Assembly (NCBI GenBank): GCA_021646415.1
Contig: SOEU01000008.1
Coordinates: forward strand, 1 to 64,000
DNA from: Candidatus Brocadia sp.
Lineage (GTDB): Bacteria > Planctomycetota > Brocadiia > Brocadiales > Brocadiaceae
Length of the DNA stretch: 64,000 nt
Reading direction: 5' to 3'
Shown here one piece after another: positions 38,872 to 48,912 of this stretch (within the stretch, counting starts at the first letter, position 1; each line of letters starts with the position of its first letter). Position numbers and translations under genes: made by a program. Below the pieces are notes generated by a model. The model saw only the letters and a program-made list of their open reading frames with translations. It was not told where the DNA came from and did not search any database.

Positions 38872-39765
38872 TTATGACTTCATCTTCACCTTAACATCTT
38901 TAATTTCTTCTGGAGACCCACCAGCTCGCGGTAACCCAGCGCTTCCAGAACCTCCTTTTATGGCCTCCATCTTCCTGGCGCCCTTTTCATCCATGGCATT
39001 TGCAAACCAATACAGGAATGTAACAAAAAATGTACCGCCCACAATGTTACCAAGGGTAACAGCGACAAGATTCCAACCAAACATCTTACCCCATGAAATT
39101 GCCGCTGGATCATGCGGTAATAAGTTCGCAATTGTTAATATTGTCATATTCGCAACGCTGTGTTCCATGCCTGTCGTAATGAAAGCAAATAAACACCACC
39201 AGATCATAATCAACTTGCCGGAATCGCTCGTACATCTAAAGCAAGACCATATTGCCAGACAGACCAGCCAGTTACAGAAGATACCCCTGAAGAATAGCTC
39301 CCACCATGGTGCAGTAGACTTATAGGTAGCCACCTTGAGTATAAATGACTTCCAGGGATCAGGGGCAAAGATACCGGCGACAATAATCATAAGTGCAAAG
39401 AGCATTGATCCACCCAGGTTCCCTAAGTATGTCCAAAACCAACCCAGCATGGAATCGGCGAGCGTTATAGTGCCCCTCAGTGTTCCTTTAAATACAAGCA
39501 GGTTATACCCGGTAAACAACTCGGCTCCACCAATAATTACTAATGACAATGCAATACCAAAGGTTGCACCCGCAACTATCTTACCAATTCCTGGATTTAG
39601 TGCCGCAACAGGCGCCGCACAAATAAATGCAAGGATGACGCCAAACCCAATATAAAAACCAGCCATCACAGAAAGTGTCAAGAAACCCGTTAGACTATGT
39701 TTCATTGCAGTGGCTTTCTTGAGAGACACCGCTGCAATTGCATCTACGTTCGCAGTATATAACAT
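38872..39765 (-). CDS. Formate/nitrite transporter (FNT family, FocA/NirC)
   Basis: 297 residues with six TM helices. FNT signatures are present: GAELFTGYN after TM2, the CNWLVCLAIW loop-helix and MEHSVANM with the central pore histidine. In an anammox bacterium, nitrite or formate are both plausible substrates; sequence alone cannot choose. A strong GAGGAG site precedes the ATG. Upstream on the same strand are a receiver, a coiled-coil protein, a PAS sensor and an HPP protein, suggesting a regulated uptake locus. The charged C-terminal tail after TM6 is longer than in E. coli FocA. Confidence 0.93.
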   Translation of the reverse strand: MLYTANVDAIAAVSLKKATAMKHSLTGFLTLSVMAGFYIGFGVILAFICAAPVAALNPGIGKIVAGATFGIALSLVIIGGAELFTGYNLLVFKGTLRGTITLADSMLGWFWTYLGNLGGSMLFALMIIVAGIFAPDPWKSFILKVATYKSTAPWWELFFRGIFCNWLVCLAIWSCFRCTSDSGKLIMIWWCLFAFITTGMEHSVANMTILTIANLLPHDPAAISWGKMFGWNLVAVTLGNIVGGTFFVTFLYWFANAMDEKGARKMEAIKGGSGSAGLPRAGGSPEEIKDVKVKMKS

Positions 39766-39965: not shown

Positions 39966-40397
39966 TTAACTCTTTTCCTTGAGAATCATTTTGTTCATAT
40001 CCATGATTTGTTCCAGGTTGCGTACCTTGTCTGCCAATTGTTTTTTTTCCAACGCTTTCTTTCCTATATCGATTACATCTTTTTGTCTGAACGGCTTCAG
40101 TATGCAATCATACACTCCACAGCTAGCCATCCGGTCTGTATCGTAGATATTCGGGGAAATAATTGCTACAAGCTCTGCATCAGGGTTAGAAAATTTGATC
40201 TTCTTTAACATTTCGCAACCTTCGGAAGGCCTTACACCTAAATCGACAATAATCAGATCGTAGGCATTTCTCCCGAATAACTCTGCCGCACCACTCCATC
40301 CAGTGCCATCGCATGTTCCGAAACCTTCTCGCCTAAAGGCACTTACCAATGACATTCTAACCTTCTCCTGCTCTTCTATAATTAAAACCTTTGACAT
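39966..40397 (-). CDS. Stand-alone receiver domain, NtrC-type
   Basis: About 143 residues. Receiver fold with acidic E8-E9, phosphoacceptor D52 in LIIVDLG and Lys in CILKPFRQ, then the helix KKALEKKQLADKVRNLEQ, which in NtrC proteins links to the AAA+ domain. Here it ends after that linker with a short helix. The linker wording closely resembles the full NtrC at 44298 (KKAIEKKSLKDRVRYLEG). I read it as a truncated paralogue that kept only its receiver. Start at 40397; upstream codons lack homology. Confidence 0.85.
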   Translation of the reverse strand: MSKVLIIEEQEKVRMSLVSAFRREGFGTCDGTGWSGAAELFGRNAYDLIIVDLGVRPSEGCEMLKKIKFSNPDAELVAIISPNIYDTDRMASCGVYDCILKPFRQKDVIDIGKKALEKKQLADKVRNLEQIMDMNKMILKEKS

Positions 40398-40432
40398 AAA
40401 GATCTTTTCGATTTTAACACAAATATAATGTT

Positions 40433-40963
40433 TTATTGTTTGGGAAGACTCCATTCTGGGGTTTTCGCGTGCTCTTCAATCTGTTTTTTGAGCATCGCAT
40501 TTTCTTTTTCAACTTGCTCCAAATTCCCCATAAGTTCCCGAATAGTCACATCCTTGTTACTCAATGTCTTCTTTGCAAGGGACAGCGAGTCTTCTAATTC
40601 CCATATCTCTCTTTGCAACCGGGCCTTTTCCTCCTCCAGTTTTGCTTTTGCATCTTCGAGCTTTATGTTCACAACCTTCAGTTGTTCACCCTGCGTCTTA
40701 AAAGAAGCTGCTATTTTTTCTGCATCTTCTTTTTGCCGTGTAATATCACTAACCATCTTATTCAGCTCTTCCATAGAACCAAAGGCCTTCATCACTCTTT
40801 GTTCGAGTTGTTCGTGGAAGGTTTTTTCTCTGACATAGCCAGCTTCCTTCATGGCATAGTATTTATTTATCATCTTGGATGCGAACCCCACATTCACAAA
40901 CAGCAGTATTATAATAAGGGTTTTCGCATTGACGGATAAGCCCTTTACAGTTTCATTTCCCAT
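40433..40963 (-). CDS. Membrane-anchored coiled-coil protein
   Basis: 176 residues. One N-terminal TM (about 14-32, AKTLIIILLFVNVGF) followed by an almost continuous heptad-rich coiled coil (about 55-165) and a short tail. No enzymatic motif. GGAG lies just ahead of the ATG. It sits between the truncated sensor and the stand-alone receiver on the same strand with gaps of 50 bp or less, so it may be a structural partner of that sensor. Function unknown. Confidence 0.8.
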   Translation of the reverse strand: MGNETVKGLSVNAKTLIIILLFVNVGFASKMINKYYAMKEAGYVREKTFHEQLEQRVMKAFGSMEELNKMVSDITRQKEDAEKIAASFKTQGEQLKVVNIKLEDAKAKLEEEKARLQREIWELEDSLSLAKKTLSNKDVTIRELMGNLEQVEKENAMLKKQIEEHAKTPEWSLPKQ

Positions 40964-41014: not shown

Positions 41015-43303
41015 TTATCTTTCCGTAATATCCCTAAATACACCTTCAATTCGTACCGGTTTACCGTTTTCGTCACGCACAAGATTGCACGTCCTTTCTG
41101 AAATGAATCGTTCACCATTTTTTCTCTTGCAATATGATGTAAAATCCCGCCATACCCCCTCTTTTTCCAGCTTCTCGACCAACTCTTTCCGATCTTCGGG
41201 ATTTACATATACATCTTTAACCCGTGTACCAATTACTTCTTCCGGTGAACTGTAACCAAGTATCTCGGCACCCGCCTGGTTGATCCATGTAAATACCCCA
41301 TCTTCAGTGGGTTCACACTGATATATCCCTTCTTTCAACGAATTCAGTAATTGCCTATGATGTCTTTCAGATTCTTGCAATTCCTCCTCGAGTTTCTTTC
41401 GTTCGGTAATATCTCTGAATATTCCATCAATACGAATAGATTTACCCTTCTCATCGGTGACCAGATTGGATGTCCGTTCCATATAGAAGCGTTCACCATT
41501 TTTCCTCTTACAAAAAGACTCAAAACCCTTCCAAACGCCTTCTTTGGAAAGCTTTTCAACAACTTTCATACGGTCATCCGGATTTACATAAATATTCTTT
41601 ACCTTCATTCCGATTACTTCTTCAGGAGATTCATAACCCAGAACTTCGGCTCCGGCTCGATTAATCCATATAAACGTCCCGTCCACTTCGGGTTCAGATT
41701 GATAAACACCTTCTTTTAGGGAATCAAATAACAAACGATATCTCTTTTCTGACTCGGTGATTTCTTGCTCTGCCTTCTTTCTCTCTGAGATATCCCTGAA
41801 TACTCCATAGATAGCCACGGGATTTCCCTTTTCATCCCTCAACATATTACTTGTACGTTCTGCATAAAAATTCTCACCATTCTTCCTTTTGCAAAGGGAC
41901 ACAAATTCCCTCCACACCCCGTCTTTTTCGAGTTTATCACAGAGGCGTCTCCTGTCCTCTGAATCTACATAAATATTTTTTACCTTTGTCCCTATCACTT
42001 CTTCCGGGGTGCTATATCCAAGTATTTCTGCACCGGCCTTATTGATAAATGTAAATACACCCTCAACACCAGGCTCAGATTGATAAACACCTTCTTTTAT
42101 GGAGTTAAATAATTCTCTATACCGCTTTTCAGACTCCACTACCTCTCTCGTTTTCTCATCCAGAGATTTCGCCATTGCATTAAAGGAATTCGCTAATTCA
42201 CCAATCTCGTCTTCCCTCTTTATGTCAACCCTTTGGGACAAATCCCCGGAGGCCATTTTTTTCGTTACTTCAGTCAGCTTAAGAATCGGTATTGAAGTCT
42301 TTCTGCCAATAAAGTATGCAACCATCACAATAGGAAATGCAATCGCCAATAACACAGAACTCACGATATAATTAAGATTATAAGCCGCACCGTAACCTTC
42401 ATCCCTGTCGATTTCAGCAACAACCCCCCAATTATACTCTGGCAACCAGCGCCATACCCCCAGTACCGTTAAACCGCTGTAGTCCTTATAACCTTTTGCA
42501 TCAAAACCGCTATTCCCTGCAATACACTGCTGAACACCGCTGGTTAATTCACCGGTTTCCGGATTAACCAGCTTTAATTCCAATGCGCACCTTTTTTTCA
42601 CCAATCCCATCTCTCTTAAATGTGCAGCAAATCTCGATTCGGTGATCATATACCCATCTTTATTCACCAGATACGTCTCTCCCGTCTTCCCCAAATGAAG
42701 ACTTAACATCAGATCGTTCAGGGTATTTGTATCAATTCTCAGCGAAACAACACCAACTACAACCCCATCCCTATCTTTTAATGGTGTTGAAACAAACATA
42801 GTGGGCAAACCTAGTTCTTTCTCACCCAATTCATTGATAAGTGGAATTTCAGACGGAATAACGCTAGATATGAAGGTGTTCCCTTGCATCGACTGTTTGA
42901 AGTAATCCATTTGTGAAATATCGATTCCTACGCCTTCTTCTACAGTAGCAACTGTTACCAGCCCCTTATCGTTGCTTACAAGAACACCCTTATAACCATA
43001 CTCATCCCTCACTACCTCAAGATACTGTACGATATCCGGATAATCTTTATCATCTTTTGTGATCTTTGCACATTTCACCATCAACGGATTATTTGCAATT
43101 ACGCGGGCATTCTTCATCCTTTCCTGTACCCAGGTAGTTACCAATTCTGCCTGTTTATGCCCAATACCATCGAGGTTTCGTATGAGTACTTCTTGAAGGT
43201 CTGCCTGGACCCTTGGATATGCTATGATCCTTAATAAAACAAACGGGAGTAGCGTAAATACAATGAGTAAAAAAATAAGCCGGTTTTTAATCGAGATATA
43301 CAT
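41015..43303 (-). CDS. Cache-HAMP-PAS-PAS-PAS sensor protein lacking a kinase domain
   Basis: 762 residues. TM1 (about 7-26), periplasmic dCache domain (about 30-300), TM2 (about 305-328), HAMP (about 330-385), then three very similar PAS-PAC repeats of about 126 residues (each with RYRELFNSIKEGVYQ-like starts, INKAGAEILGYSTPEEVIG and ending RDITER). The stop codon follows directly after the third RDITER, exactly where homologues continue into HisKA. The remaining 50 bp before the next gene hold no kinase remnant. Good GGAG site upstream. Ligand unknown; context suggests nitrite or another nitrogen species. Confidence 0.88.
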   Translation of the reverse strand: MYISIKNRLIFLLIVFTLLPFVLLRIIAYPRVQADLQEVLIRNLDGIGHKQAELVTTWVQERMKNARVIANNPLMVKCAKITKDDKDYPDIVQYLEVVRDEYGYKGVLVSNDKGLVTVATVEEGVGIDISQMDYFKQSMQGNTFISSVIPSEIPLINELGEKELGLPTMFVSTPLKDRDGVVVGVVSLRIDTNTLNDLMLSLHLGKTGETYLVNKDGYMITESRFAAHLREMGLVKKRCALELKLVNPETGELTSGVQQCIAGNSGFDAKGYKDYSGLTVLGVWRWLPEYNWGVVAEIDRDEGYGAAYNLNYIVSSVLLAIAFPIVMVAYFIGRKTSIPILKLTEVTKKMASGDLSQRVDIKREDEIGELANSFNAMAKSLDEKTREVVESEKRYRELFNSIKEGVYQSEPGVEGVFTFINKAGAEILGYSTPEEVIGTKVKNIYVDSEDRRRLCDKLEKDGVWREFVSLCKRKNGENFYAERTSNMLRDEKGNPVAIYGVFRDISERKKAEQEITESEKRYRLLFDSLKEGVYQSEPEVDGTFIWINRAGAEVLGYESPEEVIGMKVKNIYVNPDDRMKVVEKLSKEGVWKGFESFCKRKNGERFYMERTSNLVTDEKGKSIRIDGIFRDITERKKLEEELQESERHHRQLLNSLKEGIYQCEPTEDGVFTWINQAGAEILGYSSPEEVIGTRVKDVYVNPEDRKELVEKLEKEGVWRDFTSYCKRKNGERFISERTCNLVRDENGKPVRIEGVFRDITER

Positions 43304-43382: not shown

Positions 43383-44066
43383 TTACCACCAATGTGTCGG
43401 ATAATCCCTTTTCCCCATTTTATTAAAAATGACACCAATTAATACCAAAATAAAAGCGCCCAAAATAACAGGATTTAAGATGTACATATATCCAACACCT
43501 AATCCCCCGGTCTGAACAGCCACATATGCCGTTGCACCTGCCGGTGGATGGATCGAATAAGTAACCGTCATAAGCACAAGCGCAAGGGCAACACCAAGCG
43601 CTATAGACCAAAATGCTGTACCAAAAAAGTCATGTATCGTTACACCAATACATGCTGCAAGAAAGTGCCCGAGTAAAACATTTCTCGGCTGTGCGAGTGG
43701 TGCCTTATAAGCGCCATAAATCAACACGGCGCTTGCGCCAAATGGCCCCAACAGCGTGGGACACTTCCAGAGATACGCAAGCAACGCTGTAAATCCTACC
43801 CCCAAAAATGCACCCCACAAAGAAAGCCATACCTCCCGTGCAGGGATCGCAGGTTGGGGCGATCTGGGTAACTTTTTTATAAACGTACTAATCTTACTTA
43901 TCTCGTCCATTATCGGCATGTTTCTATTCTCCCTATTTGAATACCCTCTAAAAACGCCTTTTAAACGCGATGAAAAACCCTCTTTAGCTTCTTCAAAATC
44001 CTCTTTTACCTCAAACTTAACGTCTATAACTTTTTTAACCTCGGTAGTTTTTCTCCTCTTAAACAT
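43383..44066 (-). CDS. HPP-family membrane protein (putative nitrite transporter)
   Basis: About 227 residues from the ATG at 44066. A soluble N-terminal segment is followed by four TM helices of the HPP family, with the name-giving motif HPPAGATA and LLGPFGASAVLIYGAYKAPLAQPRN. HPP proteins of cyanobacteria and plant chloroplasts have been linked to nitrite transport. The open frame reaches a GTG at 44168, but its ribosome site is poor, so the start is uncertain. It lies between the NtrC gene and the truncated sensor on the same strand. Confidence 0.82.
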   Translation of the reverse strand: MFKRRKTTEVKKVIDVKFEVKEDFEEAKEGFSSRLKGVFRGYSNRENRNMPIMDEISKISTFIKKLPRSPQPAIPAREVWLSLWGAFLGVGFTALLAYLWKCPTLLGPFGASAVLIYGAYKAPLAQPRNVLLGHFLAACIGVTIHDFFGTAFWSIALGVALALVLMTVTYSIHPPAGATAYVAVQTGGLGVGYMYILNPVILGAFILVLIGVIFNKMGKRDYPTHWW

Positions 44067-44160
44067 CTGCAGTACCTGATTATCCTCCACAACTGGAGAC
44101 TGAAATTTCCATTGTCCTAATAGAATAACGAAAGATATACCAACTTCTGACGAAAAACAA

Positions 44161-44191
44161 AATGCCACCTATATTTCATATAAGTGGCATT
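44161..44191. promoter_or_regulatory. 31-bp imperfect palindrome upstream of HPP gene
   Basis: Outer arms AATGCCAC/GTGGCATT plus inner TATAT/ATATA, one mismatch per arm, small centre. It lies in the 230-bp gap between the NtrC stop and the HPP gene. It may be an operator or a transcript hairpin. It has no GG-N10-GC match, so it is not a sigma-54 promoter itself. Confidence 0.5.
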
Positions 44192-44297
44192 AAATCAACA
44201 GCTTATTACAATAACAACATTCTTTTGTGTCTCTAGTACCCAGGGTTTACTTGTTCACAAATACATTCCATTATGCAACGATAGTTTCATGATGAAA

Positions 44298-45704
44298 TTA
44301 TATACCGATCGTGTCCGAGATTTCGTGCTGTGGTTTAATCCGGTATTTTTTAATCTTCCGCCAAAGGGTCGTTGTTGATATTCCAAGTACCTGAGAAACC
44401 TTTGTTTGATTACCACCATATTTGTTCAGGGCCTCAACAATTGCATTTTTTTCCTGTTCTGCGAGCGTTGTCACAATAAACGATTTCCTCTTCTGGTCCT
44501 CCAGGGGCTCCCGGCTAAGTATTGCAAATTCTTCCACAGGGAGCGGAAGTTCGTCTACATTTATTATCTCGCTCTTAGACAAAGTAACAGCCCGCTCTAT
44601 TATGTTCTGAAGCTCTCTGATGTTACCAGGCCAATCATAGTTCACTAACGTCCGCATTGATTCTTTGGAAAAGACCCTTTTCCCTTTTTTCAGTTTTTCT
44701 AAAATTTTTTCCAAAAAATATTCCACCAAAAGCGGAATATCTTCCCTCCGTTCTCTCAGCGGTGGAAGATGAATGCGTATCACGTTAATCCGATAAAAAA
44801 GATCCTTTCTGAATTTCCCCAACTCAACAGCTTTTTCTAAATTTTCATTGGTAGCCGCAATGATTCTCGCATCCACATACATGGCTTTGTTTCCGCCAAC
44901 CGGTCGTATCTCACCATCTTGCAAAAACCGCAAGAGTTTTACCTGTGTAGAAGGTGAAGTCTCACCAATCTCATCTAATAAAATCGTCCCCCTTTGCGCC
45001 TGAAGAAATAACCCAACCTTATCTTTAACAGCCCCCGTAAATGCTCCCCTCATATGTCCAAACAGTTCGCTTTCCTGTAAATTTTCCGGTAACGCACCAC
45101 AATTAATTACGACAAATGGGCCGTCTTTCCGAAGACTATTGTAATGGATAGCCCTTGCAATCAGCTCTTTTCCCGTCCCACTCTCCCCCGTAATCAGGAC
45201 TGTACTTTCTGTACGACATACATGTGAAGTTATTTTTAATACCTCCAGCATGGCGTTAGAATTACCCACAATACCCTCGAATTTATATTTATCTCTAATT
45301 TCTCCTTCGAGATACCTGACCCGGTCTTTCAAGCTCTTCTTTTCGATCGCTTTTTTTGCAACTTTCAAGATTTCCTGGTGACGAAATGGCTTCGTCACAT
45401 AATCGTATGCCCCATCCCGAATCGCTTGAACTGCCGTGCTAATGGTACCATAAGCAGTAATCAGCACCACTTCCGTGGATGGATTTGCAGCTTTTACAGC
45501 CTTGAGCACTTCCAGACCGTCAACTTTTTTCATCTTTAAGTCGGTGACTACCAGGTCATATACATTATGACTATCCAGTTTTTGAATGGCCTCTTCCCCG
45601 CTTGCAGCACCTTCAACCTGATATCCCTCATCTCTAAAAGCAATCACGAGGGATTCTCTCATGGCATCTTGATCTTCCACAACAAGGATTTTACCGTTTT
45701 CCAT
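44298..45704 (-). CDS. Sigma-54 dependent response regulator (NtrC family)
   Basis: 468 residues. Receiver domain with D55 (LVVTDLKMK), AAA+ sigma-54 interaction domain with Walker A GESGTGKELIARAIH and the sigma-54 contact loop GAFTGA, then a Fis-type HTH at the C-terminus (NKYGGNQTKVSQVLGIS). It should activate sigma-54 promoters when phosphorylated by the kinase encoded 10 bp upstream. Targets are unknown; I did not find a convincing GG-N10-GC site before the HPP or FNT genes. Confidence 0.93.
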   Translation of the reverse strand: MENGKILVVEDQDAMRESLVIAFRDEGYQVEGAASGEEAIQKLDSHNVYDLVVTDLKMKKVDGLEVLKAVKAANPSTEVVLITAYGTISTAVQAIRDGAYDYVTKPFRHQEILKVAKKAIEKKSLKDRVRYLEGEIRDKYKFEGIVGNSNAMLEVLKITSHVCRTESTVLITGESGTGKELIARAIHYNSLRKDGPFVVINCGALPENLQESELFGHMRGAFTGAVKDKVGLFLQAQRGTILLDEIGETSPSTQVKLLRFLQDGEIRPVGGNKAMYVDARIIAATNENLEKAVELGKFRKDLFYRINVIRIHLPPLRERREDIPLLVEYFLEKILEKLKKGKRVFSKESMRTLVNYDWPGNIRELQNIIERAVTLSKSEIINVDELPLPVEEFAILSREPLEDQKRKSFIVTTLAEQEKNAIVEALNKYGGNQTKVSQVLGISTTTLWRKIKKYRIKPQHEISDTIGI

Positions 45705-45714
45705 AGCTCTTACA

Positions 45715-48700
45715 TCATCCCATTAAAAAGTTACTCTGGATTGCCAATTTTTCATTTCCCACAGGCAACTTGACATAGAAGGTTGTCCCCTTGTTCTCTT
45801 TACTCTTCGCGTCAATGGTTCCCCCGTGGTCATCAATAATACGCTGGACCACTGAGAGACCCAAACCTGTACCTTCTGATTTCGTCGTATAAAAAGGTTC
45901 AAATATTTTGTCCAACTCATGGGCAGGTATACCGGCCCCGGTATCTGATATCACAATCTCCACAGCATCTCTTAAAAAAAGATTTGTTTTTCTTACCATT
46001 ATCTTGATCTGCCCACCATTAGGCATAGCCTCCAGAGAATTTACAAACAAGTTCCACAATACCTGGTGGATTAAATCCGTATCAATGTAGACCTTCGGTA
46101 ATATGCTTTCATAAATCTCCTTTATCTCTATCTGGTCTGTAAATCGACTATCCTGCTCTAACAGGAAAATGGTATTTTTAATTACTTCCCGGATATCCTG
46201 CAGGGAAAAGGAAGGTTCTCGCGGATGAGCAAAAGTCAAGAAATCACTGATGATCCTATCCAATCTTTCGGATTGTCCTACAATCATCTCCAATAAATCC
46301 TTATCCTGACCTGTCAGTTTCAAATGGGTATCCAGAATTCCCACAGAGTTACAGATCGCCCCCAGAGGATTTCTGATCTCATGTGCAATCGCTGCAGCAA
46401 GCTCACCCATTGAGGCTAATTTTTCTGATCTCCGTACTTGCTCCTCCATCTTTTTTCTTTCTGTAATATCCCTTACAAATGCCCTCACGCAAATACTTTC
46501 GCCCGTTTTGGTATTATAAAGGCTTGTTCCATTAATCTCGACATTGATTTCCTTTCCTGATTTTGTCAGGAACACAGTTTCTAATTCATTGCTTCCAGTT
46601 TCTTTGATCCGTTTCATATGTCTCTTTATTTCCTCGCGGCATTCATCTGGTACAATGCCTTCGAGTGTCATCTGCCTCATTTCTTCTATTGAATATCCCA
46701 GTTTATTCAATTCCGTCTTATTTACGTTTATAAATTTCCCTTCGAGACTAATTTCATGAATCATTTCCGGTGCGTTTTCTACCAGATCCCGATATTTTTT
46801 CTCTGACTCCTTTATCGACAGAAAAAGCCTTTTATTTTCGATGGCAATAGCCAATTGTGGAGTAATTTGATTTAATAAGCCAAAATGTACCTCCGTAAAA
46901 GCATCTTTCCTTCTGCTCCCCAGCGTAATAGCACCGGTGGTAATTCCTTTCAATTTCAACGGAAAACATAAATAAGAATGTATACCCTTCTCGTACAATT
47001 TCCGATCAAACAGATACTCTCCTTCGGTCGTATCCGCAACAACAACTGGGACGCCCTTTTCCATAGCGATACCCTGCGCCGTTGCATGAAATGGATACTG
47101 ACAGTCCATAAACCAATCAGTGGATAATAATACACCTTCAACAATATTGGAATTTTCCGTAATTTCTGTCCCATCGATGAGGTGCGCAACACCGAACCAG
47201 GTAAAATCGATCATGCGTTTCAGCTCAAGATAAATATTTTTGTAAACCTCTTTAATATCTAAACCCGATGCAATTACCTTATTGACATTATTTATAATTT
47301 CTTTTTCAAGCGCCACCAATTTCTCTTTTGTAATATCCTTTGATATTACTACAAATCCAATCGGATACCCATTTTCATTGCGTCGTAATGTAAAAGTGAC
47401 ATGAACAGGAAAGATCTCGCCGTTTTTCCTCCTTCTTATTACCTCACCCTCATATCGACCCGTTCTCCGCGCCACATCTAAAATACAATCCACCTTCCCC
47501 GATTTCACATCTTCGGCAGTATGAAGATCCCTCACATTGGCTATTCCAATCACTTCTTCAGGTCTATAACCATAAATCAGGCTTGCTCCCGCGTTAAACG
47601 CAAGAATATTTCCATTCAAATCTTGTGCAATGATGGAATATTCTGTTGAACCAGCCAAAATACTATTTAAGAAATTCGTTGTCTCCTGCAGCTTAAGGGT
47701 TCTCTCCTTTACGGTATTTTCCAGGTCAGTCGTATAATTTTTTAATTTGACCGTTTTTTCCTCTAGAGATTCTGCCATAACGTTGAACGCCTGCGACAGT
47801 TCACTAATTTCATCTTTTTTGCCACTGTCTTTTACCCGTTGTCCCAGGTCGCCACCGGTGATTCTTTTCGTTACTTCTGTTATATTGAGAATGGGGGCTG
47901 AAATCCGTTTACCAAGGTAAAATGCCGCCAGAAGCAATGGGAAAGCCAACACCAGCAGCATTGAAAGAACAAATCTTTTCAAGCTGTAAGCCGCCCCATA
48001 CCCTTCCTTGATATCGATCTGCGCAAGCAAACCACAGTTATGCTCGGGAATCCAACACCATGCCCCCAGGACATTCCTGCCATCGTAATTCATATAACCT
48101 TCCATATCGTATCCGTCTCTACCATTCAGGCATTTTTGAGCCCCATCGGTAAGCTTTCCCGTATGAGGATTTACCACCCTCAATTCTAATGCTGTCCTTT
48201 GGTGAATTAAACCCGCTTTTTTTATCACATCAGCAAACCTCGACTCCGTTAGCATAAAGCCCTCTCGGTTGACAAGAAAAGTTTCTCCTGTTTTTCCCAG
48301 CTTCGCACTTTTCATGATTTCGCTGAGTGGTAATGTTGTTATTTTGAGAACGACCGCCCCGAACATAAGATTGTCAGAACCAATGAGCGGAGCCGATATA
48401 AACATCATCGGTTCATCACTATCACCCTTTTTGTTCTCGCCTTCACCCGGAAGAAGACGTTGAATTCTGGATATAAAAATACGTCCATTCAATGCCTCTC
48501 TGCAATAATCGTAACTTATCATGTTGGAGCCTACCTGTTCCCTTTCCGTGGACACAAGCACTGTTCCGTCCCGCGAGGTAATATATACGGATTTATACCC
48601 GTACTCTGTTTTAACCATCTCGATATACTCATAGAGCTTTGAAAAGTCCCGGTTCCTGCCATCTACACTACGTTCCCATACGGCAGAGACATTTTTACTG

Positions 48701-48912
48701 ACAACCTTTGCGTCATGCTTCCTTTCGCCAAACCACATTTTTACAATTTCTGCCTGTTTTTGCTTTACCCCCTCCAGATTTCGTATCAAAGCCGCTTCCA
48801 AATCCTTTTGTGCCTTGGGAAAAGCCATAAAACGCAATAACAATAATGGCGCAAATGAACATACTAAAAGTATCAGTATGAGCTTGTTTTTAATAGACTT
48901 TAATGAAAACAT
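45715..48912 (-). CDS. Cache-HAMP-PAS-GAF-PAS sensor histidine kinase
   Basis: 1065 residues. TM1 (about 7-25), dCache (about 35-300), TM2 (about 312-335), HAMP, PAS (about 415-530), GAF (about 545-695), PAS-PAC (about 700-820), HisKA with phosphoacceptor near H844 in AAIAHEIRNPLG, and HATPase with ISDTGAGI and GTGLGLSVVQ. Cognate partner is the NtrC regulator 10 bp downstream. Its Cache-HAMP half resembles the truncated sensor at 41015. The start overlaps the end of the radical-SAM gene by 13 bp, so translation may be coupled. The signal is unknown. Confidence 0.93.
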   Translation of the reverse strand: MFSLKSIKNKLILILLVCSFAPLLLLRFMAFPKAQKDLEAALIRNLEGVKQKQAEIVKMWFGERKHDAKVVSKNVSAVWERSVDGRNRDFSKLYEYIEMVKTEYGYKSVYITSRDGTVLVSTEREQVGSNMISYDYCREALNGRIFISRIQRLLPGEGENKKGDSDEPMMFISAPLIGSDNLMFGAVVLKITTLPLSEIMKSAKLGKTGETFLVNREGFMLTESRFADVIKKAGLIHQRTALELRVVNPHTGKLTDGAQKCLNGRDGYDMEGYMNYDGRNVLGAWCWIPEHNCGLLAQIDIKEGYGAAYSLKRFVLSMLLVLAFPLLLAAFYLGKRISAPILNITEVTKRITGGDLGQRVKDSGKKDEISELSQAFNVMAESLEEKTVKLKNYTTDLENTVKERTLKLQETTNFLNSILAGSTEYSIIAQDLNGNILAFNAGASLIYGYRPEEVIGIANVRDLHTAEDVKSGKVDCILDVARRTGRYEGEVIRRRKNGEIFPVHVTFTLRRNENGYPIGFVVISKDITKEKLVALEKEIINNVNKVIASGLDIKEVYKNIYLELKRMIDFTWFGVAHLIDGTEITENSNIVEGVLLSTDWFMDCQYPFHATAQGIAMEKGVPVVVADTTEGEYLFDRKLYEKGIHSYLCFPLKLKGITTGAITLGSRRKDAFTEVHFGLLNQITPQLAIAIENKRLFLSIKESEKKYRDLVENAPEMIHEISLEGKFINVNKTELNKLGYSIEEMRQMTLEGIVPDECREEIKRHMKRIKETGSNELETVFLTKSGKEINVEINGTSLYNTKTGESICVRAFVRDITERKKMEEQVRRSEKLASMGELAAAIAHEIRNPLGAICNSVGILDTHLKLTGQDKDLLEMIVGQSERLDRIISDFLTFAHPREPSFSLQDIREVIKNTIFLLEQDSRFTDQIEIKEIYESILPKVYIDTDLIHQVLWNLFVNSLEAMPNGGQIKIMVRKTNLFLRDAVEIVISDTGAGIPAHELDKIFEPFYTTKSEGTGLGLSVVQRIIDDHGGTIDAKSKENKGTTFYVKLPVGNEKLAIQSNFLMG

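Follow-up and report, generated by a model that had tools for sequence, protein, structure and literature searches.

In the present work, we examine a membrane sensor encoded at 41015..43303 on the minus strand of a Candidatus Brocadia sp. contig (SOEU01000008.1), of which a stretch of 64,000 nucleotides, called the window here, was analysed. We will show that this protein ends at the boundary of its last PAS domain, that its intact orthologues and close paralogues examined in anammox bacteria are likewise without a kinase, and that its gene is paired with that of a small transmembrane coiled-coil protein (CC). As the sensor has retained its sensing parts without a kinase and is co-inherited with CC beside genes for nitrite or bicarbonate uptake, contact with a partner is probably its way of signalling, instead of phosphorylation. 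The explanation that we favour, tentatively and at a little less than an even chance, is a kinase-independent receptor complex that would act on nutrient uptake by protein contact, with CC as the partner. Anammox, which removes much fixed nitrogen as a major sink, begins with the uptake of nitrite. How this uptake is controlled is poorly understood; a conserved output-less receptor with a defined partner makes the question testable in a heterologous host.

Results and Discussion

The open reading frame of the sensor starts with ATG and encodes 762 residues; its coordinates are exact and the frame is complete. All features of the window given here lie on the minus strand. Two transmembrane helices, TM1 (residues ca 5-28) and TM2 (ca 310-332), enclose a periplasmic dCache_1 domain (residues 36-296, 42416..43198). 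They are followed by a HAMP domain (residues 335-382, 42158..42301) and by three PAS units, comprising residues 391-516 (41756..42133), 517-642 (41378..41755) and 643-762 (41018..41377), the last of which runs up to the stop codon. A dCache domain between two transmembrane helices, followed by HAMP, is the arrangement of a dCache-type transmembrane receptor. Pfam identified no HisKA, HATPase_c, MCPsignal, GGDEF or other output domain in the 762 residues. The protein thus has neither the HisKA/DHp and HATPase_c domains of a sensor histidine kinase nor the MCPsignal domain of a methyl-accepting chemotaxis receptor, and HATPase_c is also missing in the paralogue and orthologue forms that were scanned.

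The AlphaFold2 model (mean pLDDT 82.6, ca 90 in the last PAS) contains TM1, the dCache domain, TM2, HAMP-type helices and three PAS domains, and the chain terminates four residues past the last PAS beta strand. Pfam and the model confirm the initial annotation, which had described a membrane PAS sensor that ends exactly at the PAS boundary without an output domain. It had also stated that no kinase remnant follows, and indeed the stop codon is separated from the CC gene by only 51 bases, which leaves no room for one. The fold neighbours of the dCache domain are amino-acid, C4-dicarboxylate and other dCache domains, and their nearly equal scores (Z 17-20) single out no ligand. A sequence search of solved structures with the sensor returned only PAS and HAMP relatives.

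The three PAS units repeat in register with an exact spacing of 381 nt (127 aa), and they share 66-69% identity. They end, in order, in FRDISER, FRDITER and FRDITER-stop; the stop was previously placed after a third RDITER, which is right for unit 3, but the first unit has a different ending. The internal duplication suggested at the same time is real and ancient. A tree was built from 156 PAS units, with low support at many inner forks. In it, the Brocadiaceae units mostly cluster by position (first, second or last) across genera, and the duplication is therefore older than these genera. A recent or assembly-made tandem duplication is ruled out by the same clustering.

We now turn to the question of whether the kinase-less end could be a sequencing error, or the sensor a pseudogene or a decaying kinase. 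The same genome contains a paralogue on contig 38 that is 82% identical over the full length and has its stop directly behind the corresponding DITER. A kinase is also missing from every intact orthologue and close paralogue examined in anammox bacteria, many of them from metagenome-assembled genomes. The orthologue frames are ca 767-784 aa long. Among the paralogues, the four-PAS frames have ca 890-937 aa and the two-PAS frames mostly ca 639 aa, while the one-PAS forms of Scalindua have ca 522-577 aa, such that members of the family carry one to four PAS units. Brocadiaceae frames terminate at the PAS boundary or a few residues beyond it, and Scalindua forms extend up to ca 20 residues past it, which is too short for a kinase.

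The sensor is, moreover, under strong purifying selection, with dN/dS of ca 0.05. The whole-gene values are 0.03-0.065 (ten orthologues and the paralogue, where dS could be computed), and those of the last PAS, which is the most constrained part in most comparisons, are mostly 0.01-0.05. The end shared by the paralogue and the orthologues excludes a sequencing error or a recent nonsense mutation at the stop. With this conservation and selection against it and nothing in its favour in this genome, the error or decay explanation has practically no probability left. Two concerns attached to the initial annotation, an error at the stop and a kinase domain in all close relatives, can thus be set aside, and the search that it had proposed for the same truncated form in relatives found this form in both orthologues and paralogues.

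A tree based on the dCache-HAMP region unites the kinase-less proteins of Brocadiaceae and Scalindua in a single clade (support 99/97) with no kinase inside it. The full histidine kinase of the same locus, together with NarK-linked proteins described below, is a possible sister of this clade (92/86). Histidine kinases of the dCache-HAMP-PAS type (for example the locus kinase and that of L047) share the TM-dCache-TM-HAMP-PAS plan of the N-terminal part with 42-43% identity; in contrast to them, the sensor clade lacks HisKA and HATPase_c and ends at the PAS boundary throughout. The L047 kinase belongs to a related family without a coiled-coil gene. Across 392 sampled genomes of the phylum, strong sensor matches are confined to two families, those to which the named anammox bacteria belong. 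The loci nearest to the present one are those of Candidatus Brocadia, then Jettenia, other Brocadiaceae and Scalindua. In the literature covered on anammox transport genes, output-less PAS/Cache sensors and transporter-linked PAS domains, where subscription papers were poorly represented, we did not recognise a description of this receptor family.

CC (176 aa, 40433..40963) is encoded just downstream of the sensor. It consists of a conserved N-terminal transmembrane segment of ca 20 residues and a long coiled coil, and it matches no Pfam family. Its distribution is as narrow as that of the sensor (30 of the 392 genomes), and a sensor gene lies directly upstream on the same strand in 31 of the 36 genomic CC matches, with a gap of ca 50 nt in most Brocadiaceae. 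At least one of the five remaining matches (L172) is at a contig end, with the last PAS of a sensor just upstream. At least one other, the CC gene of L125, is truly without a sensor, its neighbours being FNT and PII.

In the Scalindua loci L099, L107, L110, L112 and L130, CC runs on into a PAS domain, with the N-terminal ca 70 residues kept and strongly conserved. This PAS nests among units 2 and 3 of the Scalindua sensors in the PAS tree, and in most Scalindua loci whose CC carries a PAS the sensor has only one. The PAS of CC is sensor-derived, a link of the Rosetta-stone type, and a module common to two neighbouring proteins is good evidence of their joint action. By the same token, the C-terminal side of CC would be cytoplasmic.

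The pair is embedded among transport genes. In the window, the sensor is preceded by an HPP family transmembrane protein, a putative nitrite transporter (43383..44168; PF04982, 160 bits, cut-off 27.2). Beyond CC there are a receiver-only protein (REC, 39966..40397, which probably starts at M20 of the ORF 39966-40454) and an FNT family formate/nitrite channel (38872..39765; PF01226, 238 bits, cut-off 34.6, full length), whose match to TIGR00790 is below the cut-off of that model. An NtrC-type sigma-54 response regulator (44298..45704), present at the Brocadiaceae locus and not in the Scalindua loci, and the full histidine kinase (dCache-HAMP-PAS-GAF-PAS-HisKA-HATPase, 45715..48912) complete the set. 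In Brocadia, Jettenia and others, the order of the Brocadiaceae locus is kinase, NtrC, HPP, sensor, CC, REC and FNT. The second locus of the same genome, on contig 38, has HPP, sensor, CC and FNT, and several Scalindua loci have FNT, HPP, sensor and CC. The core unit is thus HPP, sensor, CC and the FNT nitrite channel. The initial annotation had missed HPP and FNT, the nitrite transport proteins that are the constant neighbours, as well as the nature of REC.

The complete kinase in the Brocadiaceae locus raises the possibility that the sensor is a co-receptor of it, tuning NtrC phosphorylation and transporter transcription through mixed oligomers or PAS contacts, with REC competing with the NtrC receiver. 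The conserved gene order is consistent with such a role, as are the homology of the kinase (42% identity over dCache-HAMP-PAS, and the possible sister position) and the relationship of REC to the receiver of the locus NtrC. However, the locus kinase was found in 24/24 Brocadiaceae genomes searched and in none of the other genomes searched, with 0/6 in Scalindua-family genomes that keep sensor and CC. There is likewise no kinase next to the contig 38 locus, where sensor and CC persist, or next to L175 and L176, two operons of Kuenenia. Matches to sigma-54 type promoters in the window are, furthermore, no more than chance (31 against 28.6 expected) and are uninformative. We consider this co-receptor explanation rather unlikely overall. 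In Brocadiaceae the sensor may tune the neighbouring kinase, but as an ancestral or general function this is unlikely, since a kinase missing from Scalindua is not a general partner. Modulation of the adjacent full kinase, which had been offered as one way in which the sensor might act, is accordingly weakened as a universal rule. One weak sigma-54 site is located upstream of HPP (44274-44289).

The nearest relative of REC is the receiver with linker helix of the locus NtrC (41%). The window protein has the acceptor Asp, which is replaced by Val in L078 and by Ala in L084, and several orthologues show erosion of the acidic pair, so that the conserved acceptor Asp and acidic pair of a phosphorylatable receiver are not kept across the orthologues. 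The linker helix, KKALEKKxLxDKVRxLE, is on the other hand nearly invariant. By sequence, REC is a degenerate relative of the NtrC-type receiver encoded next to it, and REC may work by contact and not by phosphate. It resembles CheY-like receiver-only regulators in having no output domain, and differs from them in that the Asp and acidic pair are not universal and the NtrC-type linker helix is the best-kept part.

The sensor-CC pair is also found away from nitrite genes. In Scalindua its neighbours are carbonic anhydrase and SulP or NhaA, and in a Kuenenia-group genome they are carbonic anhydrase, DabA and an antiporter-type subunit; the pair has, judging from these neighbourhoods, moved together to inorganic-carbon loci. 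The earlier suggestion was that the sensor may act through protein contact, for example with the neighbouring coiled-coil protein. CC as a likely partner is well supported by this joint relocation, by the high rate of adjacency and by the PAS common to the two proteins in Scalindua.

In the receptor complex that we favour, the sensor would be a stable kinase-free membrane receptor whose dCache domain detects a small solute in the periplasm. The change would reach the three-PAS stack through TM2 and HAMP, and this terminal stack would serve as a docking surface. CC would be the dedicated partner, the two proteins forming a membrane complex via PAS/coiled-coil contacts and with no phosphorylation, and the PAS stack would dock on a transporter through CC or directly. 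REC could be a further docking partner. Given that the genes of the pair lie among those for HPP and FNT or, where it has moved, among those for inorganic-carbon uptake, direct uptake control, in terms of transporter activity, assembly or placement, would be the most likely output. We infer the physical complex, a ligand, the direction of the signal and the control of the transporter from the domain content, the kinase absence in orthologues and the purifying selection, and from the CC pairing, the PAS exchange between sensor and CC and the transporter neighbourhood.

It is important to point out that some observations count against this contact model. Some sensor copies are alone or beside non-transport genes (L118, L108, L106), and L125 combines CC and FNT without a sensor. 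A gene neighbourhood can also reflect co-regulation instead of contact, and in Brocadiaceae, where the locus holds a complete kinase/NtrC pair, the complex may affect that pathway. Another option is that the sensor is a free PAS adaptor, passing its state by PAS heterodimerisation to partners from other loci (kinases, diguanylate cyclases or further PAS proteins), while CC only anchors or multimerises it. The 54 sensor matches in the genome (3.81 Mb), which are mostly other multi-domain signalling proteins, fit this picture, as do the lone copies away from transporters and some Scalindua sensors (L098, L099) beside a HisKA_3-type kinase and a LuxR-type regulator. It leaves unexplained, however, the constant pairing with CC and the transporter context of the paired copies, and we regard it as improbable.

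Further copies have other contexts. RND-type (Czc/Cus-like) efflux clusters hold four-PAS or two-PAS sensor copies (L093, L123 and, by sequence, L010), which are without CC. In three genomes the sensor, again in copies without CC, carries an N-terminal SemiSWEET/PQ-loop domain (L124 5364-7856, L171 2355-4847, L170 2370-4562), and in two of the three this fusion is followed by a stand-alone SemiSWEET gene. We count the fusion in favour of the receptor complex.

Coupling of the kind proposed for the receptor complex can be compared with known systems. The cytoplasmic PAS (PASC) of DcuS binds the transporter DctA in E. coli (PMC3892338). As in DcuS-DctA and DcuS-DcuB, a periplasmic PDC/Cache-type sensor has a cytoplasmic PAS linked to a transporter (PMC3892338). 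The anammox sensor shares the cytoplasmic PAS and the genetic linkage, but not the kinase output; DcuS has a kinase and is informed by the transporter, and the transporter contact of the anammox sensor is putative. By analogy, the sensor would have retained the DcuS-like contact part after loss of the kinase. PII (GlnK)-AmtB is similar in that a small regulator is encoded beside a nitrogen transporter, but the proteins are unrelated, and PII is soluble and reads cytoplasmic metabolites. In KCNH potassium channels the PAS (eag) domain serves gating or docking and not a kinase switch, but it is part of the channel polypeptide (PMC7515569). The sensor family is a clear natural example of PAS stacks as terminal modules instead of kinase relays, and a whole family is available for asking how kinase-less PAS signalling works.

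Under nitrite limitation, Kuenenia upregulates a putative operon that contains focA_2 (KSMBR1_1070), as well as the HPP gene KSMBR1_1075, five locus tags from focA_2 (PMC7438415), which speaks for the receptor complex. By gene order, the locus L122 (genome G020) is a candidate for this focA_2/HPP locus. In three Kuenenia-group genomes the HAMP domain of the sensor is lost, and the membrane and PAS parts are in separate frames. This would suit a further alternative, in which the sensor is a titrating ligand-binding protein or scaffold, the dCache domain holding solute near the channel and the PAS stack only clustering transporters. Elsewhere, HAMP and PAS are strongly conserved, and we judge this alternative very improbable. 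A run of ten A marks the exact point of the frame change in the sensor genes of the Kuenenia-group genomes and of G018 (A AAA AAG or A AAA AAC, -1 shift into the PAS frame; L122 8662-10463, L175 7850-9639, L176 6028-7817, L121 7001-8907), and it occurs at two different sites within the gene. This could reflect programmed slippage, genuinely split genes or a restart at GTG. The split halves are under purifying selection, with dN/dS of 0.10 and 0.08 (one pair tested).

Another dCache membrane protein that lacks a kinase (470-494 aa, ca 478) precedes NarK in 30/30 loci, with a PAS-only gene (ca 130 aa) between the two in the loci read; this separate case also speaks for the receptor complex. Such dCache-PAS-NarK clusters are located at L013 6023-9115, L014 6235-9376, L134 2029-5184, L172 1840-4978 and L173 7693-11024. 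A broader generalisation can be formulated, namely that anammox bacteria have a phosphorylation-free receptor system for nutrient uptake in which ancient Cache-HAMP-PAS receptors discarded the kinase and gate nitrite, bicarbonate and other transporters directly via interchangeable PAS domains and a transmembrane coiled-coil adaptor. From the sequences this would be possible, though we hold it to be more likely wrong than right.

The dCache and PAS-only pair accompanies both NarK genes of the source genome, and in genome G005 (L134) the NarK cluster is directly followed by HPP-sensor-CC-FNT. Most Brocadiaceae CC proteins end in ..PxxW(S/N)LPxQ (40433-40500 in the window), and NarK-linked dCache proteins (C-termini of L150 and L153) end in ..QSPEKxVxxWELKx; this is possibly a shared docking motif, or chance. 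A family search of the source genome, on which the census of its dCache proteins rests, gave five further dCache proteins without an output domain (L135 1198-2415, L139 613-2397, L141 1360-2388, L142 796-2376, L146 1324-2886). They comprise a dCache-HAMP protein of 406 aa, a tandem dCache protein of 595 aa, dCache proteins of 343 and 521 aa, and, as the fifth, a dCache-HAMP-PAS protein of 527 aa.
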